DNA from: a virus
Direction: 5' to 3' (one strand)
IMG/VR virus record: IMGVR_UViG_3300046674_000362
Span: 21,482-85,481 of that record
DNA: 64,000 nt
Each line of letters starts with the position of its first letter. Position 1 is the stretch's first letter. The notes beneath the pieces are model-generated. The model saw only the letters and a program-made list of their open reading frames with translations, did no database searches and was not told where the DNA came from. This document shows positions 5,094-29,867 of the stretch, piece after piece. A program made the position numbers and the translations under genes.

Positions 5094-5101
5094 TTTTCCT
5101 A
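5094..5101 (-). promoter_or_regulatory. TAGGAAAA element (copy b), upstream of capsid gene
   Basis: The element shares its TAG with the stop codon of the 5099-5587 gene. It lies 112 bases before the capsid start. A GC-rich inverted repeat (GGCGGCGGG and CCCGCCGCC) sits between it and the gene, at about 5067-5092. Confidence 0.45.
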
Positions 5102-10892: not shown

Positions 10893-11666
10893 TTACATGA
10901 AGGTGTCGAACTGGGTAAATACTAGTTGGAGCTGCTGGAGCGTGTCATCGCTGCGCGACAGCTCAATATCAATCGAGGATGGGCGCACCACGAAGGTTTC
11001 CTTGTAGCTGCCGAACAGCGAGCCGCCGATTTCGTCAATGGCCGACTGGGTGACGCGCATGGTGATGAGGTAATCGACCGGCAGGCCAATGGTCCCGTCC
11101 TGATGCTCGATCTTGGAACACTTGGCATCGAACCACTTCCTGATCGTGCCCTTCGTATCGTCGTAGGTCGTGATGCGCAGCTCGACCCGCTCGGACCCGG
11201 TTACGATGTCAAACTGCGCCATCCCGACGGCCTTGGCCTCACTGGTGATCGTCCACGGCCCGTAGGCCACGTCGGTGGCGAACAGGTTGAAGGCATGGCT
11301 GATGTCCTTGGAGCCACTCGGGGGCTTCCAGTCCTCGATTTCGAGGAACCACAGATTTTTCTTGGAATACTGCGTCGCCTGGACTTCGGCTGCGATCCGG
11401 CGCGCTTCGTCCAGCGTGATCCCGCCCAGCAGCGGGTTTTTCTTCAGCGCCTTGGCGATCTTGCCGGTGACAAACCCGGTGAGGCCATCGGCCACCGCAC
11501 CCGCGAGGTCGCCGCGCAGGGCGCGCGAGGCGGCCCCTTGCAGGCTTTTCGGCACGAACTTGCCGATCACGGAATTTCCGAGCGACTGGCCGATAGCGCC
11601 CAGCGAGGGAATCCGGCTCGATACGTTGGCCGTTATCTGACTTGCGATGGAGTCGAACAGGCTCAT
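10893..11666 (-). CDS. Tail tube/baseplate-tube junction-like structural protein
   Basis: A 257-residue protein overlapping the end of the portal gene by four bases. The first 90 residues are Gly/Ala-rich helices (LGNSVIGKFVPKSLQGAASR). The remaining part is beta-rich (NLWFLEIEDWKPPSG, AQFDIVTGSERVELRITTYD) and ends QLQLVFTQFDTFM, typical of tube-fold proteins such as T4 gp19 and gp54. It may form the junction of tube and baseplate, or the tube itself. Context between portal and tail lysozyme supports a structural role. Confidence 0.6.
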   Translation of the reverse strand: MSLFDSIASQITANVSSRIPSLGAIGQSLGNSVIGKFVPKSLQGAASRALRGDLAGAVADGLTGFVTGKIAKALKKNPLLGGITLDEARRIAAEVQATQYSKKNLWFLEIEDWKPPSGSKDISHAFNLFATDVAYGPWTITSEAKAVGMAQFDIVTGSERVELRITTYDDTKGTIRKWFDAKCSKIEHQDGTIGLPVDYLITMRVTQSAIDEIGGSLFGSYKETFVVRPSSIDIELSRSDDTLQQLQLVFTQFDTFM

Positions 11667-13753: not shown

Positions 13754-14347
13754 TCAGAATGGGATGTCGTCTGGAATTGCAGCAATGCGGGCACGCTCGG
13801 CGTCGCTCATCGGCGGCAGCGGCTTATACAGCTCCGGGCGCAGGGCGCGCATCCGTGCGCCGATCAACTCAGCCTCGGCCAGCAGCTTGCCCTTCTCATC
13901 ATCCGAGCGCTGAGCCCAGCAGGATGGATGCTGCCCCGGCCCGGCGTCGCCGAACATGGCGCACTCGGAACGGTATTGTGTCATGCGCTCGGCGGCGCTT
14001 TCGTCAATCTCGTTGATGATTTCGCCGATTTCGTTGTGCCGCGCTTCGAGGGCGTCATAGTCGTCCGACAGCAGCAGATCAGGGACGGCCGCCACCGGCT
14101 CGGCCTCGGGCTCGCAGTTGCGCAGGAACACCACGACGGTGCCGTAGTCGGACACGGCGCGGACGCTCTTGACCGCGCGCACGGTCGGCAGCTCGTCGGC
14201 CGGGGTGTCATGGAACTGCTCGCGGATCGCGGTTTCCAGGGAGTGCCCAGCCATTTCGGCGAAGCGGGCCATTGCCTTGTCGATGCTCTTGTAGCTGCGG
14301 CGGTCGCTGCCGTCAACGTCGCGGGTGTGTACGGTGTAGTTGCTCAT
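13754..14347 (-). CDS. Hypothetical protein, first gene of the minus-strand early-type unit
   Basis: The start is the ATG at 14347 (MSNYTVHTRDVDG), with GGAGAGGA upstream; a longer frame would run through the promoter and is not credible. The 197-residue protein has a helical middle (AMARFAEMAGHSLETAIREQ) and a C-terminal part with Cys/His (SECAMFGDAGPGQHPSCWAQ). It is transcribed from an early-type promoter at 14398-14427. No family recognised. Confidence 0.6.
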   Translation of the reverse strand: MSNYTVHTRDVDGSDRRSYKSIDKAMARFAEMAGHSLETAIREQFHDTPADELPTVRAVKSVRAVSDYGTVVVFLRNCEPEAEPVAAVPDLLLSDDYDALEARHNEIGEIINEIDESAAERMTQYRSECAMFGDAGPGQHPSCWAQRSDDEKGKLLAEAELIGARMRALRPELYKPLPPMSDAERARIAAIPDDIPF

Positions 14348-14397
14348 GGTCTGGTCCTCTCCGGTCGCTGCGCCGTGGCGCTGTCTCAATGAATCGA

Positions 14398-14427
14398 ATT
14401 GTACGCGCTCACAATTTGAATCGTCAA
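14398..14427 (-). promoter_or_regulatory. Early-type promoter with operator-like dyad (minus copy)
   Basis: On the minus strand TTGACG (14422-14427), an 18-base spacer and TACAAT (14398-14403). The spacer and -10 form AATTGTGAGCGCGTACAATT. It is the only minus-strand member of a seven-copy family. Confidence 0.8.
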
Positions 14428-14452
14428 GCGGTTCTTTTTTGTGACGCAAACG

Positions 14453-14476
14453 AAAAAGCCCGGACGTGCCGGGCTT
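14453..14476 (-). terminator. Intrinsic terminator after the DarB-like unit
   Basis: On the minus strand a GCCCGG...CCGGGC stem is followed by five T residues, just after the stop of the 14498-14905 gene. It separates that unit from the early-type promoter beside it. Confidence 0.8.
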
Positions 14477-14497
14477 CGATGGGAGGGGAGGGAGGCG

Positions 14498-14905
14498 TCA
14501 GGCGCGCGCGGCCTGATCCGGGTCGTACAGCACCAGCGTGCCCGCAGGCAGCTCGTATTCAGAGGTCAGCACGCCCACGCCGCCAATGTTGTCGTCGCCG
14601 AACTCCCAGGCGGCCAGCAAAGTGAGTTCCGGGCTCACCGCGCCGTCCTCGCCCTTGATGGCGTATTCGTCCGCCCAGGTCGGCTCATCATAGGTGCCGA
14701 CGGCCAGCCCGCCCGCGCGCAGGATACGCTTCATGGCCCACCAGTACGGGCCGTAGCGCAGGTACGCCGTCAGGCTTTTCCCGAGCACCTTGCGGGTTTG
14801 CTCGATGAAGATGGGCAGCAGCGGCTTGCCGCCGACTTGCTTGGACAGGTCGGCCAGCTTTCCGCGCAGGTAGTTCGGGTCGATCTTGTAGTCTGGTTCG
14901 CTCAT
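14498..14905 (-). CDS. Hypothetical protein downstream of the DarB-like gene
   Basis: A 135-residue protein, 46 bases after the DarB-like gene and ending at a terminator. The helical N-terminus (NYLRGKLADLSKQVGGKPLL) is followed by LTAYLRYGPYWWAMKRILRA, an amphipathic, aromatic-rich segment. No family recognised. Co-transcription suggests a partner or regulator of the polyvalent proteins. Confidence 0.55.
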   Translation of the reverse strand: MSEPDYKIDPNYLRGKLADLSKQVGGKPLLPIFIEQTRKVLGKSLTAYLRYGPYWWAMKRILRAGGLAVGTYDEPTWADEYAIKGEDGAVSPELTLLAAWEFGDDNIGGVGVLTSEYELPAGTLVLYDPDQAARA

Positions 14906-14951
14906 ATCGTTCTATCGTTGGTGCCGCCCCGGAGTGGGGCGGCAGGTTATG

Positions 14952-17900
14952 TTACACGAGGTAGTCTTTGATGTTCAGCCCCAGGTGCGCAAACAGCGAT
15001 GCCACCGAAGCCACGTCCTTGCCATCGCTGAACTTCTCGCCGTCCTTGATGGTCAGGCGGAATGCCTTGCTCACGTTGTCGAACGTGCGGCCTTGCAATC
15101 CGGCTGCGCCTGCGGTGGCGATCTTTTCATGGGTCGGCGAACCGCGAGTCGTTTTAAGCAGAATGTATTCGTTGGCCTTGTAGAAGTAGCTCGCGGAATA
15201 GCGGTCTGCCGTTTTCATGTCGTCCAGGGTGCCCAGCTCGGCCGAGTTGACGCCCGGCACGCGGCGCAGCGCCTTGAGCATCCCGTCGAGGTCCACGCCT
15301 GCGGCATCAAGCGACTGCTTGGCGTTGTAGCCCTTGGCGTAGCTCCGCAGGCTCGACCAGATCGCGCCCACGTATTCCTGGGTGAGCTTTGCCGCCGTCG
15401 CCCAGTCCTTGACGTACATGCGCGCCGAGGCCGGGAGTTCTTGGCTGCTGCGGGCATTGTCCGCGCCCGCCACCAGCTCGACATACTCGCCGGTTTCCTT
15501 GAACAGCAGCTCGGCGAGCGCGCGGCCGTTCTTCTCGTAGAAAGCAAAGTCCGGTGAATAGCTGGGCGCGGCCATGATTTCGCTCGCCAGCGTCCCATCC
15601 TGCACGGCCTTGGAAATCGCAGCATACGCTGGGGAGGTGATGACGTACTTGCTCGACTCAGGGAACAGATGCCAGCGCTCCACACCATCATCAATCTTGT
15701 TGCGGGTCTTGGTGTAGGTGGAGTACAGGTAGCCCAGTGCGTCCTCCAGCGAGTCGATTTCCGCGACTTGCTGCTCGGTGCGGAACCAGTTCAGCGCCCA
15801 GGTGTCCAGCTCGTCCGGCGACTTCACGCTTGCCACGCCGCCCGGCAGCGCCAGCTTGAACGCCTCGTCAATGTCCAGCGCGGCGAGCGCCTTGCCGATG
15901 GTCAGGCCCGGCGTGATGGCGTCCAGATCGGCCTTCGTGACACGCAGCTTGTGCGCCACGACGTACACGGCCAGCTCCTTGAACTTGGCTTCGGGCGTCG
16001 CATAGCCGCCGTCACCGACGTTGCGCAGGTCGGTCAGGATGATCTGGCGATAGCCCTTGCCGTAGGACTGGATCAACGGCGCTTGCTCGGCCCTGATCTT
16101 GTCCGTCAGCTCGCCGCCCTTGGCATCCTGATCCAGCACGAACGGGAAGTAGGGCGCTTTGAAGCGGAAGCTGTCTGCGGTCATGGCGGCCGACGGAATC
16201 GGAACGTCCAGCGCCTCGCGCACGTCGGCCACCAGGGACGAATACAGCGACAGGTCGCTGGCCGTGAACGCGCCAACGGTTGCGATGGTCGCCTTGTCAG
16301 CCGCGACGGCGCGCGCTACCGTGGCCGCCCATTCCTCGGAGCCGCGTGCGATGAAGGTTGCGCCAGTCATGCGCAGCAGCTCGGTATCGGTCAGGTCGGC
16401 CGGGTTGAAGCCCACCAGACTGGTGCCGCGTCCGCGCGTCGGCTTGCGCACGACCAGCAGCTTGTTTTCAAAGTCCACGAAGCTGCCCACCACGGCCAGC
16501 GAGCCGGTCACGATTTCCGCCTCGCCCGCGTTGAAGGCGTCCAGATCGTCCTTGCTGTAGCCGTCGCCCGCGCGCATGTTGAAGCTCACGGCCGCCTCGT
16601 CCCTCATGCGGGTGGCGATGCCCAGGTCTTTCTGCCAGTTCGCATAGGCTGCCGTTTCCTTCATGGCGTCGGTAAGCCCGCCGAATTCGGACGGCGCAAC
16701 CGGCGTGCCGCGCGAATCGAGAGACAGGCCGCCCAGCAGCGAGAGCTGGTCCTTACGCTTGGATTCCAGTTCGGTGATCTGCCGGGACAGGCGAGCGGCC
16801 AGAATCGGGCCTTCGGTTTCGGACAGGCGCTCTTGCAACTTGTCGATGGCGCTGCGGGTCTGGTTCGCAGCCGCGAGCTTGGCCTTGACCCATTCCACGA
16901 AGCCGGTCAGCGGGCGATGCGCCGAGCCCTCGCCGTACTTGGCGAGCCACTTGGTCTGCGCGTCGATGATGCGCAGGCTTTGGAGCTGGGCCACGCGCAC
17001 GGCCGCGCGCTTCTGGCGCTTCTGGCGCTGCTCAATTTCCTCGCTGATGCGGTTCATCGCGCCAGCGTCGCCGACGGCGTTCGCCAGCAGCTCGTAGTCC
17101 TCCTTACTCATATCGCCCTCAATCTTGATCGAGGTCGAATCGCCATTCATCAGCGAGCCGATCCAATCGGCCTTGATGCCCACGAGCTTGCGCTTGTAGC
17201 CGTCGAACGTGCCGTCGGCGTCGTAGTGGTACACGCTCACTTTCGATACCGGGTTGCCCTGACGGACGCCGCGACCGTTGCGCTGATGGATCGAGTCAGG
17301 CGTCCAGCCGATAGTCATGTGGTGGATCGCTTGGCAGCCTTTTTGCAGGTTGATGCCCACCTCGGCCTTTTTGTTCGCAATAACGACGGTGTATTTATTG
17401 TCCTCGCCATCGGCGTTGAAACCGTCCTGCACGTCCTGCATACCGGCCGTGTCCACGGAAACCGCGTTGACGATCTTGATTTTCGATGCCGGGACGCCCA
17501 CCGCCTGCGTCAGCGCCAGCTTGATCTTGTGGTGCAAGCTCAGCTCATCGCAGAAAATGATCTGCTTGGCCTGCCCCATCCAGCGCGGCGTCGCGGCTTC
17601 GTTGCGGAAGTTCTCGATCATCGCGGCCAGCTTCGGGCTGATGCTTACCGACGGCTCGATGTCTTGCGCCGCCAGCAGCTTCAGCAGCACGTCCTGCGTC
17701 TCGAAGTCGGTAGACAGCAGCTCAACAGCCCGGCCATCGGCGGCCGCGCGGGTGCGCACGGTGATGAGGAACTTGGTGACGGACTCGCCGGTTTCCACGT
17801 CCTTGACCACGCGGGTTTTGATGTCGGCCGGGTCAGCGTTCGGGTCGCTGTAGTCGCGTTCTTCGACAACGTTTTTCTTGTTGAATGCCGCGATGGCCTT

Positions 17901-20900
17901 GGCCGCACCTTCAGCCTGGGCCGCCGTGTGCTTGAACTTGAAAATGCCGCCGTCCAGCTCGCGGTCGTTGATTACCCGAGTCATTTTGCGGATCAGGTTG
18001 AACGGGCTTGCGGCCAGCTTTTCCTCGGCCGTCGCACCGCCAGCCTTGACTGCCTCGACCGCATCCATGTACTCGTCCTTGTAGCCCAGGATGGTGCTCA
18101 TCGCGTCCGAGCCGATGTCCACCGAGACAGCCACCTCATCGGCATCCGGCACCGAGATATTCAGGCCGTCGGCCTTCACATCCTCGGCGGTCTTGATGAC
18201 GGCAGAGGTTTGCAGCAGGCGGCGCAGAAGGCCCGCATTGGACAGGCCGCCGAACACGCGCACCGGGCGCATGATGCCGACAATGTTTTCTTCCTCGCGC
18301 TCGTCAATGTCGCAGGCGGCCGCCATGAAGGAATCCGCGCCGGTCACGCCGTACATGGAGTTGACTTCACGCTCGCCCAGCGCCAGCGTCAGCATCGCAT
18401 AGACTTCCAGCGGGGAGTTCGTCACCGGGGTCGCGGTCAGCGACAGCACGCCATCGTTGCGCGGCGACAGGCCACGGATGAACCATGCTTTCGCCTGCAT
18501 GTCCATGCCGCGCTGTGACTTGGACGGGTCAGCCAGATACTTCGCGCCCTTGAACTGGGAGCTGGTCATCTTGCTGTTTTTGTAGTTGTGCGCCTCGTCC
18601 AGCACCAGCGAGTCCACGCCCATATCCTCGAAGTAGGGCAGCGCGCCGGACTTCTCGCCGGTATCCTTCACGGCCTTGGATTTGCTGTCGGCGGCGATGT
18701 TGGCCTTCTTCTTATTCGCATCTTCCTCGGCCAGCAGGTAGGCATCATCGTTCTCCGTCAGGTATTGGATGTACGCCTGCATGGTTTCGTCGCGCAGCGG
18801 GATCATCTTGAACGCCTCCAGCGTCATGAAGATTTTGCTGTGACGGTTCTCGCGGATCGCGTTCAGGTCGGCTTTCACCTGGGCGGCGTCGATCTTGTCC
18901 TTGCCGTTCTTGCCCTTGACCAGTCCCACGTACAGGCAATCGGACGTGTCCAGATACGCCTTGCCGCTTTCCTTCTTCCAGTTGGTCAGGGTGGCGTTCG
19001 GCACCACGAAGATGGTCTTGCGCTTGACGCCGATGCTCTGGCAATACTGGGCTGCCGCGAGCGCGGTCAGGGTCTTGCCGAGGCCCACGTCGAAGCCCAG
19101 GACGCCGCCGAAGTTGCGCGAGAACCGGCGCACGGCCGCATACTGGTAGGCGTGCGGGCGGAAGTCCAGCGAATTGAGGTTCGGGATTTCCAGCGGCGAG
19201 CCGTCCGGCTCCTGTACGAAGCGCAGCGCCTCGGGCGAGTTCAGGCGCGCATGGAGGCCCGCTTGCACTTCCTCGTTGGCGCGCGCCCAGGCGTCGAACT
19301 GGGCTTTCGCGCGGTCGGCGATTTCCTTGATGCGGCGGACCAATGCGGCTTCCTTGTCCGGGTCCGCCTCCACATCCACCTGCTTGTTCTGCGTCGTGAT
19401 GTTCTGGTTCTTGAGATAGCCCTTGACGAAGCGCTGCATGGCCTTGTGCGCGGCGGCTTCCTCCTCGGATGCCCACTTGCTCAGCGACGGCTGCTTAATG
19501 TCGAACACGTCGCGGCCCAGTGCGTCCTGGGTCATGAAAATGTCCGGGCTCACGTAGGCGCGCAGGAATTCCAGCTTTTGCAGCATCGTGACGTGCGGCG
19601 TGAACAGGCTGAACGTCATTTGCGACACATCGACCGGGTTCAAGCGGGCCTTGGCCGTCTCGTGCTGGCGCACCAGCTTGGTGCGGATCGCCGGATCGTC
19701 GCACGCTTCCAGCTCGGCGGCGGCCGCCTTCAGGAAGTCGGCATAGATGCCGGTGTAGTAGTCGTTGGCATGGATCACGGCCTTACCGTCGGCCGACACG
19801 CACCATTCCTCGTCGGTGAGCGGGTCGAAGCCCGAGAATGCCGCCTGCATCTTCTCGACCGGCACATAGCCCGATTCGTCCTCGGCTTCGTACTTGACCT
19901 TTTCGTATACCTGGGACGGGGTGAGGGCGATGGTCTGGAGGTCCGGGGCGATCTGGCCCAGCCAGAACGGGGTGAATTCGCCCTTGGTGCGGGCGGTGCG
20001 GATCGACAGCAAGCCATCCTTCACGACCTTGGCGGCGCGGCCGAGGGTCTTGTTGCCGTAGGACTGGACGCGCGCGAGCTGCGCCGACAGGACCGGGTAG
20101 CCGTCCTTGTAGTTGTACGGCTCAACGCTGCTGGCATCCTGCGACAGCCCCATGACGGCCAAGCCCGCGCTGATCGCTTCCCACCAGCTCTGGCGCTCGT
20201 TGTCGGCGAGCTGGTCGAGCGAATTGCGCACGGCCAGCAGCCAGTTCGGGGTGCTCATGTGGCGGCCCTTCAGGTTCTCGTAGGCGATCCAGCGCCCCAC
20301 CTGATCCCACTTGATGCCGTTGTTGACGCAATCCAGCGGGGTCTGCACCTTCTGCCCGATGGCCTGCATTTCCTTGTCCTCGCCCACGTTTGCGTCGAGC
20401 GCGACCCATGCGCCATCCTTCCATTCGAGGGTTTGGCCGTTCGAGTGGATCACGTCGCCGTCGGCGTACACGATAGGGGCGGTTTCGGTCGTGTTCAACA
20501 GCTCCCAGTCGATGTGCGACGCCGGGAAGCGCTTGATGAGCTTCGCGATGTTGCTGATGGTGTCGTTGTTGATGACGGCGGCGACTTCGCCATAGCGGCC
20601 GGTGGTCGTGCCTTCCTCGCCGAGAATGTACTTGCGGCCAGCGCCAACGAAGTATTTGCCGGACAAGAATTCATCCCACAGCACGCGCGCTTCGCCCAGG
20701 ATGGCCGGGTTCTGCTCTTGCAGCTCGGCGATCTTGGTCGCGGCTTCGCGGGAGAACTTGCGGAACACGATCAGGTCGGTGGTCACGTCGGCGGCGGCCG
20801 TCGTGAAAATCGAGTTGGGCAGGCGGTACGCGCCCAGGAATTCGGCCATGAGGCTGGCGCTGGTGCGCAGCTTCGATTCCTTGCTCGACAGGCCGGACAC

Positions 20901-21755
20901 GATGGACTTGGGCACGATGAACGCGGCCAGCCCGTTCGGCTTCAGCTTTTGCAGCGAGCGCAGGATGAAATACTCTTGCAGGTTCGACTTCTGGAACCGC
21001 TTGTCCTTGAGCGGATTGTCGCCGCGCATCGCCAGATCGCCGAACGGCACGTTGGTGACGACGGCATCGTAGATTTCGTCCGGCGTCGCGGCGGCGACTG
21101 CCTCGAACGGGGCCACGGTGGTGCTGACGGTCGGGCCGTCGTTGATCGCGCCATTGATCGCGCCCGAGGTCGCATCCAGCTCTACCTGCGTCATCACGGC
21201 GCTGGCTGGGCGGGTGGCGGTGAACACGCCGGAACCGGCCGACGGATCAAGCACGGTGCCGCCATTGAAGCCCAGCTCTCCCAGCAGGGACCACATGGCC
21301 GAGGCGATGGGCTTCGGGGTGTAATACTCGTAGGGCGAGCCGGTCAGGCCGTTTGCGTCCGTCAGGCCGCCACCGTTGCCGCTGTACTTCGCCAGGATGG
21401 CGCGCTCGTCATCCGTTACCGCGACTTCCCCAGTCTTGATCTTGGCGAGCAAGGCGATGGCGGCATTGTTGTCCTTCTGGCGCTGGCCCAGGGTGCGCTT
21501 TCCTTCCTCGGGGTAGAACCGCTGCGTATCGCTCGCGGGCGTGCCCTTGGTCGGTGCCGGGGTTTGGACGGAGGCCGGGCGCTTGCCCATCGCCTGCATG
21601 ATTTCACGGACGCGGACGCCGATCTTCAGCAGCCGCAGGCGCGACTTGGTATCGTCGCCGAGGGAATCGCGCTCTTTCTTGAGCTTGGCAAACTCGGCCG
21701 CGAGCTTGAAATTGGCAAGTGGATTGCCGGGGGATGTATCGTCAAAGATTCTCAT
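14952..21755 (-). CDS. DarB-like polyvalent protein: N6-adenine methyltransferase plus SNF2-type helicase
   Basis: This 2267-residue protein is the largest gene in view. A methyltransferase region lies near residues 150-260, with the SAM motif LDPSAGSGVF (about 169) and the catalytic-type motif NVPFGD (about 232), an NPPF variant. A superfamily-2/SNF2-like helicase follows: Walker A FDVGLGKT (about 885), DEAH in LVLDEAHNYKN (about 1052), SLTATPVTNSP (about 1110) and arginine-finger motif QRNGRGVRQG (about 1493). The remaining 700 residues are unassigned. The family includes phage P1 DarB and the polyvalent proteins of Iyer and colleagues, thought to be injected with DNA to block type I restriction. 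The NVPF instead of NPP[YF] is worth testing for activity. Confidence 0.85.
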   Translation of the reverse strand: MRIFDDTSPGNPLANFKLAAEFAKLKKERDSLGDDTKSRLRLLKIGVRVREIMQAMGKRPASVQTPAPTKGTPASDTQRFYPEEGKRTLGQRQKDNNAAIALLAKIKTGEVAVTDDERAILAKYSGNGGGLTDANGLTGSPYEYYTPKPIASAMWSLLGELGFNGGTVLDPSAGSGVFTATRPASAVMTQVELDATSGAINGAINDGPTVSTTVAPFEAVAAATPDEIYDAVVTNVPFGDLAMRGDNPLKDKRFQKSNLQEYFILRSLQKLKPNGLAAFIVPKSIVSGLSSKESKLRTSASLMAEFLGAYRLPNSIFTTAAADVTTDLIVFRKFSREAATKIAELQEQNPAILGEARVLWDEFLSGKYFVGAGRKYILGEEGTTTGRYGEVAAVINNDTISNIAKLIKRFPASHIDWELLNTTETAPIVYADGDVIHSNGQTLEWKDGAWVALDANVGEDKEMQAIGQKVQTPLDCVNNGIKWDQVGRWIAYENLKGRHMSTPNWLLAVRNSLDQLADNERQSWWEAISAGLAVMGLSQDASSVEPYNYKDGYPVLSAQLARVQSYGNKTLGRAAKVVKDGLLSIRTARTKGEFTPFWLGQIAPDLQTIALTPSQVYEKVKYEAEDESGYVPVEKMQAAFSGFDPLTDEEWCVSADGKAVIHANDYYTGIYADFLKAAAAELEACDDPAIRTKLVRQHETAKARLNPVDVSQMTFSLFTPHVTMLQKLEFLRAYVSPDIFMTQDALGRDVFDIKQPSLSKWASEEEAAAHKAMQRFVKGYLKNQNITTQNKQVDVEADPDKEAALVRRIKEIADRAKAQFDAWARANEEVQAGLHARLNSPEALRFVQEPDGSPLEIPNLNSLDFRPHAYQYAAVRRFSRNFGGVLGFDVGLGKTLTALAAAQYCQSIGVKRKTIFVVPNATLTNWKKESGKAYLDTSDCLYVGLVKGKNGKDKIDAAQVKADLNAIRENRHSKIFMTLEAFKMIPLRDETMQAYIQYLTENDDAYLLAEEDANKKKANIAADSKSKAVKDTGEKSGALPYFEDMGVDSLVLDEAHNYKNSKMTSSQFKGAKYLADPSKSQRGMDMQAKAWFIRGLSPRNDGVLSLTATPVTNSPLEVYAMLTLALGEREVNSMYGVTGADSFMAAACDIDEREEENIVGIMRPVRVFGGLSNAGLLRRLLQTSAVIKTAEDVKADGLNISVPDADEVAVSVDIGSDAMSTILGYKDEYMDAVEAVKAGGATAEEKLAASPFNLIRKMTRVINDRELDGGIFKFKHTAAQAEGAAKAIAAFNKKNVVEERDYSDPNADPADIKTRVVKDVETGESVTKFLITVRTRAAADGRAVELLSTDFETQDVLLKLLAAQDIEPSVSISPKLAAMIENFRNEAATPRWMGQAKQIIFCDELSLHHKIKLALTQAVGVPASKIKIVNAVSVDTAGMQDVQDGFNADGEDNKYTVVIANKKAEVGINLQKGCQAIHHMTIGWTPDSIHQRNGRGVRQGNPVSKVSVYHYDADGTFDGYKRKLVGIKADWIGSLMNGDSTSIKIEGDMSKEDYELLANAVGDAGAMNRISEEIEQRQKRQKRAAVRVAQLQSLRIIDAQTKWLAKYGEGSAHRPLTGFVEWVKAKLAAANQTRSAIDKLQERLSETEGPILAARLSRQITELESKRKDQLSLLGGLSLDSRGTPVAPSEFGGLTDAMKETAAYANWQKDLGIATRMRDEAAVSFNMRAGDGYSKDDLDAFNAGEAEIVTGSLAVVGSFVDFENKLLVVRKPTRGRGTSLVGFNPADLTDTELLRMTGATFIARGSEEWAATVARAVAADKATIATVGAFTASDLSLYSSLVADVREALDVPIPSAAMTADSFRFKAPYFPFVLDQDAKGGELTDKIRAEQAPLIQSYGKGYRQIILTDLRNVGDGGYATPEAKFKELAVYVVAHKLRVTKADLDAITPGLTIGKALAALDIDEAFKLALPGGVASVKSPDELDTWALNWFRTEQQVAEIDSLEDALGYLYSTYTKTRNKIDDGVERWHLFPESSKYVITSPAYAAISKAVQDGTLASEIMAAPSYSPDFAFYEKNGRALAELLFKETGEYVELVAGADNARSSQELPASARMYVKDWATAAKLTQEYVGAIWSSLRSYAKGYNAKQSLDAAGVDLDGMLKALRRVPGVNSAELGTLDDMKTADRYSASYFYKANEYILLKTTRGSPTHEKIATAGAAGLQGRTFDNVSKAFRLTIKDGEKFSDGKDVASVASLFAHLGLNIKDYLV

Positions 21756-21776
21756 TGAGGGTCCGGTTTAGGGGAT

Positions 21777-21814
21777 AAAAAAACGGGCAGCGCACTCGAA
21801 AGTATGCCGCCCGT
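21777..21814 (-). terminator. Intrinsic terminator between the 720-residue and DarB-like genes
   Basis: On the minus strand ACGGGC and GCCCGT pair across about 26 bases and are followed by seven T residues. It lies between element copy e and the DarB-like start. Confidence 0.7.
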
Positions 21815-21835
21815 CAACCACACCAAAACCGGGGC

Positions 21836-21843
21836 TTTTCCTT
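21836..21843 (-). promoter_or_regulatory. AAGGAAAA variant element (copy e)
   Basis: CGCAAGGAAAAGCCCCGG on the minus strand lies 81 bases before the DarB-like start, but upstream of the terminator-like hairpin. If it is a promoter, the leader contains an attenuator. Confidence 0.4.
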
Positions 21844-21857
21844 GCGGATTTACCCTA

Positions 21858-24020
21858 TCAGCCCATCGCCTTGACCATGTAATCGGTGTACGCCTGAATC
21901 GCTTGGCCCCACAGCGCCAGCACCTCGGCGTCGCCATCGTAGGCCGTGCCCATCGCCTCGATCTTGTCCGCCAGATCATCGGCCCACATATCGGCGTTGC
22001 CGGAAATGACGCTGTTCAGGAACGCCATATCGTTGGCGCGCTGCGGGTTATTGACCGGCTCGGGATCGACGGCGGCAGGCGCGGGCTGGAATGCCTCGGC
22101 CTCAGCCCGCGCAGCAGCGATCGCCTCGGCGGCGGTGCCGTAGGTGCCCACCTCTTGCGAGGGTGAGCCGCTGATGCCGCCAGCAAACGACGCCGACTTT
22201 TTCAGCTTGAACTGCGCTGGGGTGCCAAACACGCGAATGTTGAGGTTGAGCTTACCGCTCTCGCCCTGCACACCCTTAGCCCATTCGTTGCCGCTCACGT
22301 TCTTGAATCCGGCCGCCGTCAGCTCGGCCGATCCAGCATCAGCCACGACAGGCTCAGGCTCGACGGCCGCAGGTATCTTCCAGTCCAGCTCGGGCCATTC
22401 CTCGGCCATCACGTCCGTGACTTCGCGCGCCAGATCGGGGCGGCCGGTGGCTATGTAGGTCGCCAGCTCGGCGCGCTGCTCGCCTGCGGAGTTGAGCACG
22501 CGGTACACGTCGATGCGGCGCAGTTGCGCCAGGGTGTCGGCAGCGATCTTGATGAGGGTGTCCATGCTGGGCTTCTCCTGCTGGGTTGGTTCCGGCACCG
22601 GGGCCGCCGCATTGGCGGCATGCCATGCCTTGCTATAGGCGTCGTATGCGGCTTTCCATGTGTCGCCGCCGATGGTCAGGTTGCGCACCAAGTTCATAAA
22701 TACCGGGTTTTGGCTCGGGGTCGAGGTCATGCCGATGGCGAATCCGGCAGCGCCCAGCTCGGCCGCCGACTTGATGATTTCGTCGGAGGTGATTTGCGCG
22801 GTCAGCTCCGCATCGCGGTTGGTCGCATATTCGATCTTCGCGGCGAGCTGGCGTGAGCGCGCGGACAGGGCAGGGGTCAGATAGCCCGCCTTGCGCTGCT
22901 CGGCCAGCAGCGTAAGCGCCTCCTGATGCCACAAGCCATTGCCGGTGCGAGCGGCGCGCATCGCCAGCACCTCGGCATGATGGTTGGCCGCTGTCAGGGC
23001 GTCGATGATGGCGCTGTAGTCCGCCTCAGTCATACCCTGAATCAGCGCCGTGGGCAGGGTCCATGCCTCATGCGTGAACGGGTCTTGCACGGCCTGCGCA
23101 ATCGCGGCGGCCACCGGGTCCACGGTTGGCTCGGGCAGTGTGGCCATTGCGTCGATTTCGGCGGCCAGCTCGTCCGGGGTCTTGGTCAGATCATCCCTGA
23201 TGCCGTTGATGGTCATGCCGACAACGTTCTTGCCTGCGCCCACCTGCCAGAAATCGAAGCGGGCGATGATGCCATTCTTCGACAGCACGCCGCGCTGCTG
23301 GCCGTCCCAGCCCAGGGCGCGCAGGGCATTGCGCACGTCCACGATGCGGCCGCCAAAGAAAGAGTCAAGGCGGTCTTGCCACTCGATTGCCAGCGCCTCG
23401 CTTTTCAGTACCTTGGCGTAGCCAGTCGGCGAGGTCGGGTCGAACTCGGGCACCGCCTCACCCTTGATCTTGCGGGTGAGCACGAGGACATCGCGCGCGA
23501 CGCCCAGGATGTACAGCGGGTCAGCGCCGATCCTGATGGCGCTTTCGAGCGATTCCTTGCGCTCGCCAAGCTCGCCCTGCAACTGGAAGCCCAGCAGCGG
23601 GTTTGCCGAGTCCATCACCGGCACCGGGGCGGGCACCACTTCAGCTACCGGCAGCAGCTTGGCCGCATCCTCGGTCAGCACCGCGTCATACACGCTTTCA
23701 TCCTCGGGCAGCTCGGCCAGGACGATGCTCGATTCGATGTTATCGACCACGGCGTACATGGTGACGCCCTCGCGCGGCTGCGGCGCGACCGGGAAGGCGA
23801 CGGAGTAGCGCACGGCGCTGGCCGTAAAGCTGACGCCCACCACGATACCGGCGACATACAGGGCGTCGCCCTCGGCGTCGTTCAGGGCTACCCACACGCG
23901 GCCAGCAAGCGAGTTTGCGGACGGCAGGACGGACGCGCTCATAGCGTCGGCGGCCGCCTGATTGATGAGCTTGAAGCCGAGCCAGGAGGTCGGCAGGGTG
24001 GTTTGATTCGTGTCGGTCAT
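21858..24020 (-). CDS. Polyvalent-cassette protein, 720 residues, unknown function
   Basis: The start is taken at the ATG at 24020 (MTDTNQTTLPTSWLGFKL), with AAGGAG at the end of the upstream gene serving as ribosome site. No catalytic motif is recognised. Visible features are a beta-rich N-terminal 110 residues, a section VRNALRALGWDGQQRGVLS near residue 245, a long helical middle, and an Ala/Glu-rich linker. The C-terminal 55 residues (AFLNSVISGNADMWADDLAD and onward) resemble the ends of the 24022-25122 and 27002-29773 products. It is the last gene of the unit, followed by a terminator. A packaging or ejection role of the shared C-terminus is inference. Confidence 0.65.
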   Translation of the reverse strand: MTDTNQTTLPTSWLGFKLINQAAADAMSASVLPSANSLAGRVWVALNDAEGDALYVAGIVVGVSFTASAVRYSVAFPVAPQPREGVTMYAVVDNIESSIVLAELPEDESVYDAVLTEDAAKLLPVAEVVPAPVPVMDSANPLLGFQLQGELGERKESLESAIRIGADPLYILGVARDVLVLTRKIKGEAVPEFDPTSPTGYAKVLKSEALAIEWQDRLDSFFGGRIVDVRNALRALGWDGQQRGVLSKNGIIARFDFWQVGAGKNVVGMTINGIRDDLTKTPDELAAEIDAMATLPEPTVDPVAAAIAQAVQDPFTHEAWTLPTALIQGMTEADYSAIIDALTAANHHAEVLAMRAARTGNGLWHQEALTLLAEQRKAGYLTPALSARSRQLAAKIEYATNRDAELTAQITSDEIIKSAAELGAAGFAIGMTSTPSQNPVFMNLVRNLTIGGDTWKAAYDAYSKAWHAANAAAPVPEPTQQEKPSMDTLIKIAADTLAQLRRIDVYRVLNSAGEQRAELATYIATGRPDLAREVTDVMAEEWPELDWKIPAAVEPEPVVADAGSAELTAAGFKNVSGNEWAKGVQGESGKLNLNIRVFGTPAQFKLKKSASFAGGISGSPSQEVGTYGTAAEAIAAARAEAEAFQPAPAAVDPEPVNNPQRANDMAFLNSVISGNADMWADDLADKIEAMGTAYDGDAEVLALWGQAIQAYTDYMVKAMG

Positions 24021-24021
24021 G

Positions 24022-25122
24022 TTACTCCTTGAGCGCCGCGTCGGCCTGGGCAATGGCATAGGCCGCATACGCCTCTACGGCGGATTTGAACAGCGCGAGC
24101 ATATCGGCATTGTCGGCGCTGGCCGCATGGATTTTCCCAAGCTCATCGGCCACGGCCAGATCGGACAGGTCCAGGGTGCCGCCGATCACGGCATTCAGGT
24201 AGGTGCGCGCCTCGGCGTGCTGGTCGGCGACCGGCTCAACCTTGACTTTCTTGGCGATGCCGTAGCCCTTGGACATTTCCGCGAATTGCTTGAGCTTTTC
24301 GGCGACCATGTGCGGGTGCGCCGCCAGCTCGCCGCCCGGCGTGAAGAAATCAAACAGCTTCGCCGCCCACGGCCCGCGAATCTTGTCCATGATCCCGTCT
24401 TTCGCGCCAATGTCGTGCTTCATGTTATTGATGGCGCTGCGCAGGTTCGTGTACTCGTTCGCATACTTGTTGCTGGCCGGGTCAAGGCGCAGCTCGCTCA
24501 TGCGGTCACTGGTGATCGACGCGACCATCTGGCGCAGGGACATTTGCTGACTATCGAACGTCCGGCCCATGCCTGCATACACCATCGCAGCGCGGCCAGT
24601 GTCGCCCATCGCCTCATAGTCCTTCTCGAAGTCCTCGGTAGTCTCGTAAGCGCCCCATTCCAGCTTGCGCTTTTCCGGCTCAGGGGCGTCGTCGCCCAGC
24701 TCGGTCACGATATGGCGCAGGCGGTCCAGATCGCCAAAAAACGTGTCGGCGTTCTCATCCAAGCGGCCGAGAATCTGCGCGCCCTCGCCGATCAGCTCGA
24801 AGGCTTCGGCCGGGCTTACTGCGTCGAGCACCGTTGTCGTCATGTCGTTGTTTTCCAGTTCGTCCATTAAATCGTCCTCGGTCGGGAGAACGGTAATTCC
24901 GTATTTCTCGGACTGGCAAAATCCGTAAAGGTCAGCCGGTTCCAGGCTATCGAATTCGATCAGCGCGCCGCCGCGCCCGGAAATAGAATTCAGCCCGAGA
25001 AAAGCCTTGAAATACTCGATTGCATCGGCGCTGCCGGTATATTCGACGCGGCTTTCCTCGTCATCGCCCCATGTGGCCTGAAACGCCCCGTAGGGCGTGA
25101 CTGCTTTGTAAATCGTGGTCAT
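24022..25122 (-). CDS. Polyvalent-cassette protein, 366 residues, modular
   Basis: The start at 25122 (MTTIYKAVTPYGAFQATWGD) overlaps the stop of the upstream gene (ATGA) and has GGAGAACC before it. Residues about 103-150 (AFELIGEGAQILGRLDENAD, TFFGDLDRLRHIVTELG) match the N-terminus of the 627-residue neighbour (FFAIVGEGAALLKNLDEESS, GFFDDLNRLREILAMLG). The C-terminal 60 residues (YLNAVIGGTLDLSDLAVADE) match the ends of the 720- and 923-residue proteins. It is thus a chimera of modules present in its neighbours. No enzymatic motif is seen. Confidence 0.7.
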   Translation of the reverse strand: MTTIYKAVTPYGAFQATWGDDEESRVEYTGSADAIEYFKAFLGLNSISGRGGALIEFDSLEPADLYGFCQSEKYGITVLPTEDDLMDELENNDMTTTVLDAVSPAEAFELIGEGAQILGRLDENADTFFGDLDRLRHIVTELGDDAPEPEKRKLEWGAYETTEDFEKDYEAMGDTGRAAMVYAGMGRTFDSQQMSLRQMVASITSDRMSELRLDPASNKYANEYTNLRSAINNMKHDIGAKDGIMDKIRGPWAAKLFDFFTPGGELAAHPHMVAEKLKQFAEMSKGYGIAKKVKVEPVADQHAEARTYLNAVIGGTLDLSDLAVADELGKIHAASADNADMLALFKSAVEAYAAYAIAQADAALKE

Positions 25123-27002
25123 TGTAGGTTCTCCACTCCAACTGTCTCGATCAGCTTTTTCTTGGGATCGCCAGAAAAGCCGTCGATGAAATAGCGCCAT
25201 GCGTTTGTGAGGCCCGCGTTGTCGCGGTGTGCGATGGCAAGCAGGGCTCGCACCATGTCGAGGTCGCCGTGGAAGCTGATCGAATCGGGAATCGTCCGCG
25301 CGCCGGTTTCGCTGCGCGTCCCGCCCGTCGAGGCATCCACAAGCAGGAATCCTTTGGCGTTGCGGTTGGTGTCGTACTTACGCAGGACGCCCGAGAACAC
25401 CTTGTACTCGCCGCTGCTGCCGACGTACTGCGCTTTGCCGGTGCGGACCTTCCGAAGCGGGTAGGCGTACAGCATTTCCGCAAACAGCGAATCCTGGTCG
25501 AGCGTGTCGAACCAGTCATCTTTCGTCAGCGGTGCCTTGCCCGCGAGGTAGTCGATGGCACGCCGGTACAGCTCGCCCTCGGTGCGCGCCTGCTCCTGCT
25601 TTTCGCCAATCGCGCCCTTGTGCATGTTCAGCTTCGCATGCATCGCGGGAGTCAGCGGCATGGTGAGATAGCCGGTAATCAGCGCGAACATTTCCGGGTC
25701 TTTCGCCGCGAAAATGGCGGCATCCTTCGGGTTCGCGAGGTACTGGACGCCCATCGACCACACTTCGGTGATGCCATCGCGGTACACCTTGCCGACATAG
25801 GCATCCATGAAGTGATCCTTGTAGGCCACTTCGCGGGTGTCATAGCCCTTGTTGCCGGTCAGGTCGCGCAGGCGGTAGGCTCCCTCGCCCTCGCGGCGCT
25901 TCAGCAGGAAGCCGTTCGAGGCGGCCTTCGCAATCGGATCGTTCTCAAGATGGTGCGCCAGCTCGTGAAACAGCACGGTCTTGTTGAAGCGCGAGCCCAG
26001 GTTAATGACCTTCTCGCCCAGGCGCTCGGTGATGCCGACGGCATTGGCGCGCTTGCCGCCGTCGATGCCGATGCGGATAGCCGATGCCTTGCCGCCTGTC
26101 AGGCGGTAGAACTCGGCCATATCGCGCACCACGTCATCGGGCTTGTAGCCCAGGCGCTTGAGCTTGGCCTTGGCGTTGTCGTCAATGACTTGCTCGCGCG
26201 CCCAGGCGTCCGCCTGCTCGGCCGTGATCGGCGATGCCTCGGCGATCTTGGTGAGGATCGCGCCCCCGGTTTCGTTGAAAATCGCGGCGTGCTTGGCCGC
26301 CCGGTCGGCGTAGAACTTCTGGTGCAGATCGTTCATGCGGGTCCACGCAGCCGTCTGCTCGTCGTCGTACTTCTGCCAGATCGCATCGCGCTGGCGCACC
26401 AACTCGTCAATGTTGGCGCTGTCCGATTCCATCAGCGCCTTGAGCGCAGCTAGGGCGTCCTTGCGCTGGGCGATGACACGCGCGTAGTCGTCGCGCGCCT
26501 TGGCGTATTCCGGGTCGTCTGCCGGGTGCTTCGTCAGCAGCTCATCGGCATCTGCCACCGTCTTGTTCAGTGCCTCCTGCGTGATGCCGTGCTTGACGCC
26601 ACGCCCTGCCAGGGTCGTGAACGCAGCGAGCTTCGCCTCGGGGTCGGCCGGTTTGCGGTTGAGCACGTTCTGGTAGTCCCAAATCTGCTCGGGCAGCATG
26701 GTGCCGCCGCTGCCGATGAGCTGGCCCAGGTCGCTTACCGTCACCAGCTCGAACAGCGCCAGCTCGTCCGGCAGCGCCTTGATGCCAGTTTCGAGGTAGC
26801 TTTTCAGCGCCTTGATCGACGCATCCTTATCCGCCAGGGAGAATTGCAGCGGCTTCACGGCCGACTCATACCCCAGCATGGCGAGGATTTCGCGCAGCCG
26901 GTTGAGGTCGTCAAAGAACCCGGACGATTCCTCGTCCAGATTCTTCAGCAGGGCCGCGCCTTCGCCGACGATGGCGAAGAATTCTTCGTGCCCTGCATCC
27001 AT
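25119..27002 (-). CDS. Polyvalent-cassette protein with a zinc-metalloprotease motif
   Basis: A 627-residue protein whose start overlaps the upstream stop (TAATG). The N-terminal 45 residues form the module shared with the 366-residue neighbour. A coiled-coil-like helical section spans about residues 140-250. A zincin domain carries the HExxH motif in TVLFHELAHHLEND (about residues 346-351), preceded by a beta strand as in gluzincin/metzincin folds. The third zinc ligand is not clear; candidates lie in the following 100 residues (DNAG-type and KGYDTREVAYKDHFMDAY). The target is unknown; host restriction or envelope proteins are possible. Zincin domains are known in phage polyvalent proteins. 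Confidence 0.75.
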   Translation of the reverse strand: MDAGHEEFFAIVGEGAALLKNLDEESSGFFDDLNRLREILAMLGYESAVKPLQFSLADKDASIKALKSYLETGIKALPDELALFELVTVSDLGQLIGSGGTMLPEQIWDYQNVLNRKPADPEAKLAAFTTLAGRGVKHGITQEALNKTVADADELLTKHPADDPEYAKARDDYARVIAQRKDALAALKALMESDSANIDELVRQRDAIWQKYDDEQTAAWTRMNDLHQKFYADRAAKHAAIFNETGGAILTKIAEASPITAEQADAWAREQVIDDNAKAKLKRLGYKPDDVVRDMAEFYRLTGGKASAIRIGIDGGKRANAVGITERLGEKVINLGSRFNKTVLFHELAHHLENDPIAKAASNGFLLKRREGEGAYRLRDLTGNKGYDTREVAYKDHFMDAYVGKVYRDGITEVWSMGVQYLANPKDAAIFAAKDPEMFALITGYLTMPLTPAMHAKLNMHKGAIGEKQEQARTEGELYRRAIDYLAGKAPLTKDDWFDTLDQDSLFAEMLYAYPLRKVRTGKAQYVGSSGEYKVFSGVLRKYDTNRNAKGFLLVDASTGGTRSETGARTIPDSISFHGDLDMVRALLAIAHRDNAGLTNAWRYFIDGFSGDPKKKLIETVGVENLQ

Positions 27003-29773
27003 TACGCCACCTTCTTCTTGAATTCAGCCACGAAGAAATTCTTGGCGGCCGTTTTCGCCTGCATGACCAGATCGAGGAAAGCGCCGCTCGGGTCGGTGTA
27101 GGTACGCGCCAGAGCCGCGAGGCGATCCGTCACGCCCTTGTCGTAGAAATCCACGTTACCGGCTGCTGCGGCGGCCAGGAAGTCGCCATCGGCCGATTCC
27201 TGGGCTTCCTGCGCCTCTTTCGCGGCCTTCGCTGCGGCCTCGGCGGTGGCGGCCTCCTGGGCGGCCTTCTCGGCTGCCGGGTCCACGGTCGTGATCGGGA
27301 CTGCGCCCTCGATCATGGCGTAAGCCTCGGCCGGGGTCGCGGCCCAGGCGCTACCCGCGCTGCGGCCATCAGCGTACAGCGCCTTGATCGCGCGGAATGG
27401 CTTTTCCTTGCTCGGGTTGATCTGGAACGCATAGCCATAGCCCACCAACTTCACCAGCTCGCCCAGCTCATTCGCAACGTAGCTGCCCACTTCCGGCAGG
27501 TAGTCGTCGGGCAAATCATCGGTGCGGCCGACGATGCCATACCAGCCGGGCTTGCCATCGTAGAACGCCTTGGCATCGCTGTAGAGCTTGTCCTTGTGCT
27601 CGGTTTTCGGCGGCGCACTGTTGGCGGTGTCCCAGCCATCGAGCCATTGCGCTTGCTGCCACGGAGCCATATCGGCCGGGGCGATGCGGTCCTGATCGTC
27701 AAAGAATGCGCTGCGGCCTGCCGCGAATGCCGCTTCTTCCATCCTTGCGCGGTCGGCCAGCTCGCCCGCGTTCGGATCGGGGAATTCGCCGGTTGCGAAA
27801 TACACGCTGGCGGCGTTCTCGGCGTCGCCTTCGCTCAGGTAGGCCGGGCTGATCGGGTTATCATTCTTGACGCTGGCGACGCGCCACGTACCTTGCGCCT
27901 CGTTTTTCTGCACATAGAACTTGTCGCGCCACGTCGGCTCAGGCTCTTGCTCTTGCTCTTGCTCTTGCTCCGCAACGAATTTGCCCTTGAACGCCTTGAG
28001 CTTGTTCGCGTTGCCCGGCCCCAAGTCCGGCCGGAATGCTTCGACAATGGCCTTGCCTTCCGGCGTGATGGCGCTGCGCTTGAGGTACTTGCTCGCCGCA
28101 TTCAGGCCCGCCGCCGCTTCGGTGTACTCTGCCTCTCCGATCCCGGCGTCGCTCATGGCGTTTTGCAGACGGGCGAACGACTTGAACGAAGCCGTTGCGA
28201 TCAGTACGACCATTTCCGCATCGGTCAACGCGGCCGCTTTCGGACGGTCCTCGCGCTCCAGAACTGCCACCACGTCAGCGATGTTTTCGAGTGAGTACCG
28301 TACCGCCGTCTGCATCCTTTCTTCCGGCCTCGGGACGCTGCCCGCATCCTCCGTCTTGCTGCCATCGCTGACGTTCGCATACAGGCGCGTGAAGTCCGCG
28401 CCCTCATGCGGCTTCCTGATTTCGAGCGTAGCGGTATAGCCGCCGTCAATGGCAATCATTGCGCTCGTATCGTCGCCCGAGGTCAGCGCATAGCCTTCCG
28501 GTAGTTGGCGCTCAATTTCAGCGCGCAGGGACAGGGCAGGGTCCGGCTGCGGCAGCGGGTCCGAGTCGGTCAGTCCTGCGGCGTCGCGCGAAGCCTGGGC
28601 GGCGGCCACCTGCTGCTCCAGATCGGCCAGCGTCGCCTCCTTCGTTTCCAGCTCGGTTTTCAGGCTGGCGATGGTTTCCATGCGCTCGGCGCGCTTGCCG
28701 TTGGCGGCGATGAAGCGGGCGCTGTTCTTCTCGGCCAGCATCATCAGGCGCGCGGCCACGGTGCGCACGTTCAGGTCGCGGCCCTTTTCCGGCGCGACGG
28801 CCACGGTGATGTCTTTCTTGTTGAGCATCCACTTCCACGAAATGACATCATCGCCGGGCGCGATCTTCCGGGGCGTCACGTCCGGGTTGTGGAAGAACAC
28901 CGACACGGTTTGGCCGTCGGTCAGCTCGTAGATCACGGCGACGTTGGTCGAGCCGCGCTGGGTGAACGGCTCGCTGACCTGCATCGAGGCCACCTTTACG
29001 GCGTCGCCCGCGCGGTCCAGCACCTTCTGCAACAGCGTCATGCGCTGCTCCAGGCGCGCGAGCGGGATCACCAGCGCATCCAGCGCCAGCACGCCGTCGG
29101 CATCGCCGAGGATGTCCGCCATGCTTACGGCGTCGAACAGCAGCCCGTCGTCGCCGTCATGTGCGCGCAGGCGGTAAAGCACCTGCTCCAGTGTCGAGTG
29201 CAGCGGCAAGTTAGCGCTGTCCCAAAGTACCTTTTCCATTTCGTCCGTTCCTTCGTTGGGGAGTTGATCTTGGGTGAGGGGGCGCGTCTTGTTGCCGTGC
29301 GCGATCCACCATTTGAGTTGCGTGATCGAGCACGCGGCGCAGCTTCCCAGGCCGGTCCAGCCGGGATCGTAGTTGCTCAGGTATCCAGCGACGGCGGTGC
29401 GCTTGTCGGGGAACCCCAGCATGATTTTGTGCTCATCGAACTTGCCGCCGATGAACTGGTTCACCACGTAGACGCGCGGCGACTCGGGCATCGGCCCGAT
29501 GCTGCAATCCAGCTCGTCACCATCGTTGCCCAGGGTGCCCATGATGTAGCCATAGTGGAACTTCATCAGGTTGCTGCCGCTGGTGCCGTCGGCCGCCTTC
29601 CAGTGGCGCAGCGTGCCGCGCGGCGATTCGATGGCGATGCGCAGGCCATGCAGGGACTCCCGCCCCTTGGCGTAGTTGCCCGCTTCGTTCTGTGCAGCCG
29701 TCGAGGCGCGCTTGTGGTTGTGTCCGTTCGCACCAGAGTGCGCGGCAATGTCGAGGTTGGCGAATTTATCCAT
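27002..29773 (-). CDS. Polyvalent-cassette protein with N-terminal inorganic pyrophosphatase-like domain
   Basis: A 923-residue protein. Start at 29773 (MDKFANLDIAAHSGANGHNH); the frame extends upstream through the candidate late element, so the longer start is rejected. Residues 45-160 form an InPase-like domain: SPRGTLRHW, KFHYGYIMGT and DGDELDCSIGP. D84-G85-D86-E87-L88-D89-C90 fits the family-I pyrophosphatase signature. A long coiled coil lies near residues 370-410. A Glu-Gln repeat (QEQEQEQEPEP) is encoded by hexamer repeats near 27944-27972. An Ala/Glu-rich linker precedes the shared C-terminal module (DFLAAAAAGNVDFYDKG). It heads the unit after element copy f. Confidence 0.78.
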   Translation of the reverse strand: MDKFANLDIAAHSGANGHNHKRASTAAQNEAGNYAKGRESLHGLRIAIESPRGTLRHWKAADGTSGSNLMKFHYGYIMGTLGNDGDELDCSIGPMPESPRVYVVNQFIGGKFDEHKIMLGFPDKRTAVAGYLSNYDPGWTGLGSCAACSITQLKWWIAHGNKTRPLTQDQLPNEGTDEMEKVLWDSANLPLHSTLEQVLYRLRAHDGDDGLLFDAVSMADILGDADGVLALDALVIPLARLEQRMTLLQKVLDRAGDAVKVASMQVSEPFTQRGSTNVAVIYELTDGQTVSVFFHNPDVTPRKIAPGDDVISWKWMLNKKDITVAVAPEKGRDLNVRTVAARLMMLAEKNSARFIAANGKRAERMETIASLKTELETKEATLADLEQQVAAAQASRDAAGLTDSDPLPQPDPALSLRAEIERQLPEGYALTSGDDTSAMIAIDGGYTATLEIRKPHEGADFTRLYANVSDGSKTEDAGSVPRPEERMQTAVRYSLENIADVVAVLEREDRPKAAALTDAEMVVLIATASFKSFARLQNAMSDAGIGEAEYTEAAAGLNAASKYLKRSAITPEGKAIVEAFRPDLGPGNANKLKAFKGKFVAEQEQEQEQEPEPTWRDKFYVQKNEAQGTWRVASVKNDNPISPAYLSEGDAENAASVYFATGEFPDPNAGELADRARMEEAAFAAGRSAFFDDQDRIAPADMAPWQQAQWLDGWDTANSAPPKTEHKDKLYSDAKAFYDGKPGWYGIVGRTDDLPDDYLPEVGSYVANELGELVKLVGYGYAFQINPSKEKPFRAIKALYADGRSAGSAWAATPAEAYAMIEGAVPITTVDPAAEKAAQEAATAEAAAKAAKEAQEAQESADGDFLAAAAAGNVDFYDKGVTDRLAALARTYTDPSGAFLDLVMQAKTAAKNFFVAEFKKKVA

Positions 29774-29814
29774 CCCCCCATTGTCAGGGCCGGGGTGAGG
29801 CCGGGTGCGGCGGG

Positions 29815-29822
29815 TTTTCCTG
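29815..29822 (-). promoter_or_regulatory. CAGGAAAA variant element (copy f)
   Basis: ATCAGGAAAACCCG on the minus strand, 42 bases before the pyrophosphatase-domain gene, in a divergent region whose other side holds an early-type promoter. Confidence 0.5.
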
Positions 29823-29837
29823 ATGATACGAAACCGC

Positions 29838-29867
29838 TTGACGGCTCTTATTGTGAGCGCATACAAT
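29838..29867 (+). promoter_or_regulatory. Early-type promoter with dyad (copy 1, plus)
   Basis: TTGACG at 29838-29843, an 18-base spacer and TACAAT at 29862-29867. The spacer ends TTATTGTGAGCGCA. It drives the gene at 29897. Confidence 0.85.

Follow-up and report, generated by a model that had tools for sequence, protein, structure and literature searches.

Shared terminal modules, candidate virion-loading tags, in an enlarged P1-type Dar cassette

Five consecutive minus-strand genes in a 64,000-nucleotide stretch of viral DNA (positions 21482-85481 of the 85,481-base virus record IMGVR_UViG_3300046674_000362, referred to here as the window) encode proteins that have short modules in common, which raises the question of what these modules are and what they might do. 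The five open reading frames (ORFs; g50 to g54, with 2267, 720, 366, 627 and 923 codons and ATG starts) overlap or almost touch their neighbors, and they were recovered exactly where, and at exactly the lengths that, the original prediction had placed them. Judged by homology, the cassette is an enlarged, modular counterpart of the Dar system of phage P1, the standard example of anti-restriction proteins being carried within a phage head. The Dar system itself is already known; what is new here is what the shared modules are, namely candidate terminal tags. The two main modules, a C-terminal domain (modC) and an N-terminal DdrA-like helical hairpin, had no earlier description in the open-access papers searched, and subscription journals might hold one.

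Homology of the cassette to the P1 Dar system

The 923-amino acid (aa) product of g54 (27002-29773; the cassette, its modules and the neighboring genes g37, g49 and portal are all on the minus strand) is a DarA homolog consisting of an InPase domain (29303-29695; PF18823, 5e-42, with the metal-site motif DGDELD), a capsid-docking DarA_N domain (28721-29086; PF18788, 1e-42), a variable middle and modC. Residues 301-483 of its ORF (P0005) align with residues 124-304 of P1 DarA (PDB 9ukm; E-value 1e-22), a stretch that makes up much of the head-interior-binding region described in PMC12810830. The same InPase module is also found at the C-terminus of a solved phage portal protein (PDB 9b41), which matches window positions 27002-29866 with an E-value of 3e-29. 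The 2267-aa product of g50 (14952-21755) is a DarB homolog that joins the hairpin to an N6 adenine methyltransferase and an SNF2 helicase (Pfam N6_Mtase, 2e-10; SNF2, 1e-10; DarB-like PHROG, 9e-87). It aligns with P1 DarB across 1700 residues, contains the motifs DPSAGSG, NVPF, GLGKT, DEAH and QRNGRGVR, and had no match in the PDB. The 627-aa product of g53 (25119-27002) is a zincin metallopeptidase corresponding to the C-terminal region of P1 DdrB, with an HExxH motif (HELAH) at 25953-25967 and BLAST matches to the P1 DdrB zincin region (6e-10) and to the zincin of Xanthomonas phage Rb1 (2e-50). A Pfam search of g53 found no ParB domain, and a PDB search with its zincin gave no meaningful match; matches of g53 to 'minor head protein' PHROGs were read as the same peptidase module occurring elsewhere and were discarded as evidence for a head protein. 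The enzyme motifs of g50, g53 and g54 are intact, and the methyltransferase-helicase, zincin and pyrophosphatase motifs named in the original prediction are present, with Pfam and PHROG domain matches far beyond chance.

Further Dar components are encoded outside the five genes. A Ulx homolog lies next to the cassette (g49, 14498-14905; PHROG 1629, Ulx-like, 1e-18), an Hdf homolog lies at a distance from it (g37, 5099-5587; PHROG 1620, Hdf-like, 8e-39), and a portal protein gene (11663-13243; PHROG 1497, 5e-164) marks the late-gene context. It is virtually certain that DarA, the DdrB-type zincin, DarB, Ulx and Hdf together represent a P1-type Dar system. The description of polyvalent proteins by Iyer et al. 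(PMC5512222), to which these genes had been assigned, fits, since g50 and g54 are each single polypeptides that combine several known conflict domains, and lie in a late-gene context; by homology, however, the cassette is specifically a P1-type Dar cassette, beyond an assortment of polyvalent proteins. The five genes first listed thus stood, while the DarA_N domain, Ulx, Hdf and what the shared modules are had been missed.

All six P1 Dar proteins are present in the virion (PMC9024508, Table 1), and they are co-ejected and shield DNA from type I restriction (PMC12810830). Together with the part-by-part homology, these reports lend good support to the earlier suggestion that the five proteins would be co-ejected against host defenses. 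It is very improbable that they are instead ordinary intracellular late or early proteins that are never packaged and resemble Dar proteins incidentally: DarA retains its capsid-binding part, Hdf, Ulx and portal share a late module, and the P1 counterparts are virion proteins (PMC9024508).

Terminal modules common to the cassette's proteins

All-versus-all comparison of the five proteins, followed by iterated profiles, found each of them to be modular: g50 carries the hairpin, g51 modC, g52 modC and a further module (modH), g53 modH, and g54 modC. The matches between these proteins are significant, and we are highly confident that the shared modules, already claimed before this study, exist. 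Related loci were drawn from viral contigs (155) and bacterial genomes (60), mostly of Beta- and Gammaproteobacteria, and members of this set are labeled L006, L031 and so on. No reversed or shuffled ORF matched modC or the hairpin, nor did either module occur in 41 loci that have an InPase protein but lack DarA and DarB. Neither module matched a Pfam family. At one locus, L172, modC and hairpin both occur in a Dar cassette whose contig is labeled Alistipes (a Bacteroidota bin); it is possibly mis-binned, since its relatives are proteobacterial.

The first module, modC, is a 60-residue domain at the extreme C-terminus of the 720-aa cargo-type protein g51 (gene 21858-24020; modC 21864-22046, AlphaFold model), of the 366-aa g52 (gene 24022-25122; modC 24043-24225) and of DarA (27023-27205), the latter two being located by profile search and alignment. 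Comparison of the C-termini gave E-values of 2e-5 (g51 and g52) and 2e-3 (g51 and g54), and the AlphaFold model of the g51 copy is compact, with three helices (mean predicted local distance difference test [pLDDT] score 96.6; predicted template modeling score 0.82). The modC profile matched 84 times in 74 loci, some of the viral loci overlapping on one contig, and 83 of these 84 matches lie no more than 20 residues from the C-terminus. All 23 matches among the bacterial-genome loci are C-terminal as well, in a set that is only partly independent because some of its loci are the same elements as the viral contigs. Genes in the relatives were called as longest ORFs, so a few N-terminal extensions (e.g. 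in L008) may be artifacts; the C-terminal placement of modC is unaffected. A Foldseek search of modC against the PDB and BFVD returned nothing below an E-value of 2. The C-termini of P1-family DarA proteins matched modC with P = 2.7e-7, compared to about 0.1 or more for four unrelated sets of control C-termini, and on this homology the C-terminus of P1 DarA that was not resolved by cryo-EM is a divergent copy of modC. The C-terminal half of P1 DdrA did not match modC. Additionally, residues 501-564 of g51 with an extended start (P0002) match the last 64 residues of phrog_20105 (8e-16) and may be another module, C-terminal elsewhere and internal in g51.

The second module is a helical hairpin followed by a proline-rich linker at the N-terminus of DarB (21513-21746; profile of 46 sequences). 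It is modeled as two helices with pLDDT above 90, and its two halves look alike by eye. A profile of the 84 N-terminal residues of DarB also matches zincin N-termini, cargo proteins in the position of g52 and stand-alone ORFs; its carriers include 59 DarB ORFs, 5 zincins, 7 other cargo proteins (plus 2 that also have modC) and 5 small stand-alone ORFs of 103-136 aa that occupy the place of P1 DdrA. DdrA proteins of P1, D6 and JK004 matched the hairpin with P = 3e-10, and D6 DdrA carries the hairpin according to the profile of the related loci. The independently built DdrA family PHROG 1855 also matches cargo proteins of L031 and L079, while a DdrA-like protein of L061 is matched in its second half by the last 60 residues of the DarA-type phrog_8883 (6e-12). 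In an Acinetobacter locus (L180), a 433-aa ORF fuses the hairpin directly to an InPase domain. By these matches, the DarB N-terminal hairpin is homologous to P1-family DdrA. The hairpin profile found no stand-alone DdrA-like ORF in the window, where the hairpin is fused to DarB instead, and DdrA was not taken as a required Dar part because many related cassettes have it in fused form or lack it.

A third module, modH, is common to g53, where it is N-terminal (26859-27002), and g52, where it follows an N52 module and precedes a variable middle and modC (24682-24828). Both copies were located by their match to one another (38 aa, 53% identity, E-value 4e-7) and by profile. It takes the hairpin's slot in three settings, preceding the zincin, following the N52 module and as the N-terminal module of DarB (L020, L210), and a relation between modH and the hairpin is suggested because of these shared architectural slots.

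Constant ends, exchanged middles and a possible loading role

Relatives of the cassette show different middles behind conserved ends. Compared to L006, whose DarB is 82% identical to g50, DarA is 77% identical in InPase, 72% in DarA_N and 86% in modC but only 20% in the middle, and g52 is 84% identical in modH and 61% in modC but only 1% in the middle. Among DarA pairs with 80-97% identical DarA_N domains (98 non-independent pairs), the median identity was 45% for the middle and 77% for modC. Proline-rich linkers flank both modC and the hairpin. The modC-tagged protein adjoining DarB also differs in content, with a ddrB-ParB and an ADP-ribosyltransferase (ART-PolyVal) domain in L009, ddrB-ParB in L011, LPD3 in L008 and a match to DUF2958 in L031. 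In addition, InPase, N52 and the middle domain of g51 (residues 175-320; 23061-23498) switch carriers between relatives. In two similar P1-like elements, DarA is a single 502-aa ORF (L066) or two ORFs of 270 and 201 aa (L063), and the DarB of both has two InPase-like stretches at its N-terminus.

The shared modules could also be mere traces of gene duplication and fusion, with g51 and g52 having arisen from an ancestral DarA by splitting or duplication and the common ends having no separate function. The middle domain of g51 indeed lies inside DarA in Rb1 (45% identity to residues 418-548, E-value 4e-27) and other phages, and many relatives have a single DarA of 1200-2000 aa that holds what is split here. 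However, modC of g51 shares 65-67% identity with its counterparts from other phages and only 27-31% with the copies in g52 and g54, which rules out recent duplication as the source of the shared ends. Moreover, modC is kept where the adjoining middle has been lost or replaced, and some small ORFs contain hardly more than hairpin and modC (L040). We therefore regard functionless ends as improbable.

Terminal sequences acting in head loading have a precedent in P1. When DarA or Hdf is missing, every other Dar protein is excluded from the P1 head; DdrA, DdrB, DarB and Ulx follow these two, with DdrA named first (PMC12810830). The first 30 residues of P1 DarB suffice to target a reporter to the head, and a BLAST search by the same authors for a common loading signal found none (PMC9024508). 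The shared modules are terminal and resemble tags for loading more than they do effector domains, and it is reasonably probable that the cassette consists of interchangeable cargo behind conserved virion-loading tags. DarA (g54) and Hdf, both homologous to their P1 counterparts, would line the inside of the head, as they do in P1. The other proteins would be recruited during head assembly through small docking modules on flexible proline-rich linkers: modC at the C-termini of g51, g52 and DarA, the hairpin at the N-terminus of DarB, and the related-looking modH in g52 and g53. The hairpin, which in P1 exists as a separate protein, DdrA, is in this lineage fused to the cargo itself, and the middles would be freely exchangeable because loading depends on the ends. 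By homology, the set may be ejected along with the DNA during infection, the zincin may cleave multidomain proteins into units, and DarB and Ulx may protect the incoming DNA from type I restriction.

It is also possible, though unlikely, that the shared ends serve contacts between subunits, keeping the Dar proteins assembled on DNA as a single complex once inside the infected cell, with no part in head loading. In favor of this, modC and hairpin usually co-occur, both being present in 54 of 81 distinct cassettes; in addition, the fusion of the hairpin to DarB in some lineages and its separation as DdrA in others is a classic sign of interacting partners. In P1, however, entry into the head is ordered and depends on DarA and Hdf, and the N-terminal sequence of DarB alone localizes to the head (PMC9024508, PMC12810830). 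This alternative also overlaps with the loading model, since binding to DarA would load cargo too.

Several observations weigh against a loading role. The N-termini of P1-family DarB proteins, which include the proven targeting sequence, showed no homology to the hairpin (P = 0.19) and were rejected as hairpin homologs; tag function is thus argued from position and from DdrA. In nearly half of the DarB proteins sampled no hairpin was detectable, and the match of divergent 'EKR-type' DarB N-termini to it (P = 1e-3) is suggestive at most. By sequence, modH can be linked to the hairpin only weakly (P = 6e-4, probability 29%). Additionally, modC could instead serve oligomerization or ejection. The more general proposal that modC and the DdrA-type hairpin form a cargo-loading code of Dar phages, bringing any protein that carries them into the virion, is put forward tentatively; here, modC of DarA would hang into the head on its flexible linker and form, with the hairpin, a docking pair or pairs.

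Two conserved terminal modules common to co-encoded Dar proteins, the hairpin with its homology to DdrA and modC with its homology to a part of P1 DarA missing from the cryo-EM structure, are concrete and removable candidates for loading signals in P1 itself, and they offer a testable candidate explanation of how the head selects Dar proteins. Such tags would allow new injected effectors to be recognized. If the proposal is true, the cassette would be a naturally occurring system for delivering proteins, in which payloads such as ADP-ribosyltransferase, ParB-type and pyrophosphatase domains can be exchanged.

The source phage and comparison with known systems

Genes around the cassette encode P1-like contractile-tail structural proteins (portal, sheath, tail and baseplate, by PHROGs), and the record also encodes ParA, ParB, a CI-like HTH-S24 repressor and a resolvase. 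On the Dar parts, the structural genes and these partition and lysogeny genes, the source is a P1-like phage and the cassette its Dar system; the partition and lysogeny genes further predict that the phage is probably able to live as a plasmid. Elsewhere, an ORF upstream of the window (record positions 14300-15547; L001) fuses RdgC to an FtsK gamma domain, the DNA-motif-reading domain of chromosome translocases, in an unusual-looking pairing. A 435-aa protein at window positions 44955-46262 has piecewise matches to many short phage families and is apparently a mosaic of mobile modules.

Compared to the P1 Dar system, homologous DarA_N, DarB methyltransferase-helicase, Hdf, Ulx and DdrB-type zincin components are found here, and DarB and Ulx are encoded near the portal gene in both. 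There are several differences. In the present cassette InPase is fused to DarA; the hairpin is fused to DarB, whereas DdrA is separate in P1; no ParB domain was detected in the zincin protein g53, whereas P1 DdrB has one besides its zincin; two additional modC-tagged proteins (g51 and g52) are encoded; and darA and darB lie in one cluster, compared to two in P1. Among annotated relatives, Xanthomonas phage Rb1 (PQ569993) is the nearest, with 54% identity across 41% of the query for DarA and 39% across 81% for DarB; it has the gene order DarA, zincin, DarB, Ulx-like. Unlike the cassette described here, Rb1 has a single 1221-aa DarA in place of DarA, g52 and g51, and its DarB begins with the N52 module rather than the hairpin. 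The polyvalent proteins of Iyer et al. (PMC5512222) are likewise multidomain proteins from a late-gene context with MPTase, InPase, DarA-N, SNF2 and LPD domains, but modC and the hairpin fall outside the Pfam families, and the main text of that paper does not mention DdrA. Finally, the hairpin resembles both the capsid targeting sequence (CTS) of P1 DarB (PMC9024508), to which it has no detectable homology, and, by description rather than by sequence, the CTS of T4 IPIII, in being a short N-terminal stretch of a protein that is packaged, or in the present case would be packaged, in the phage head.
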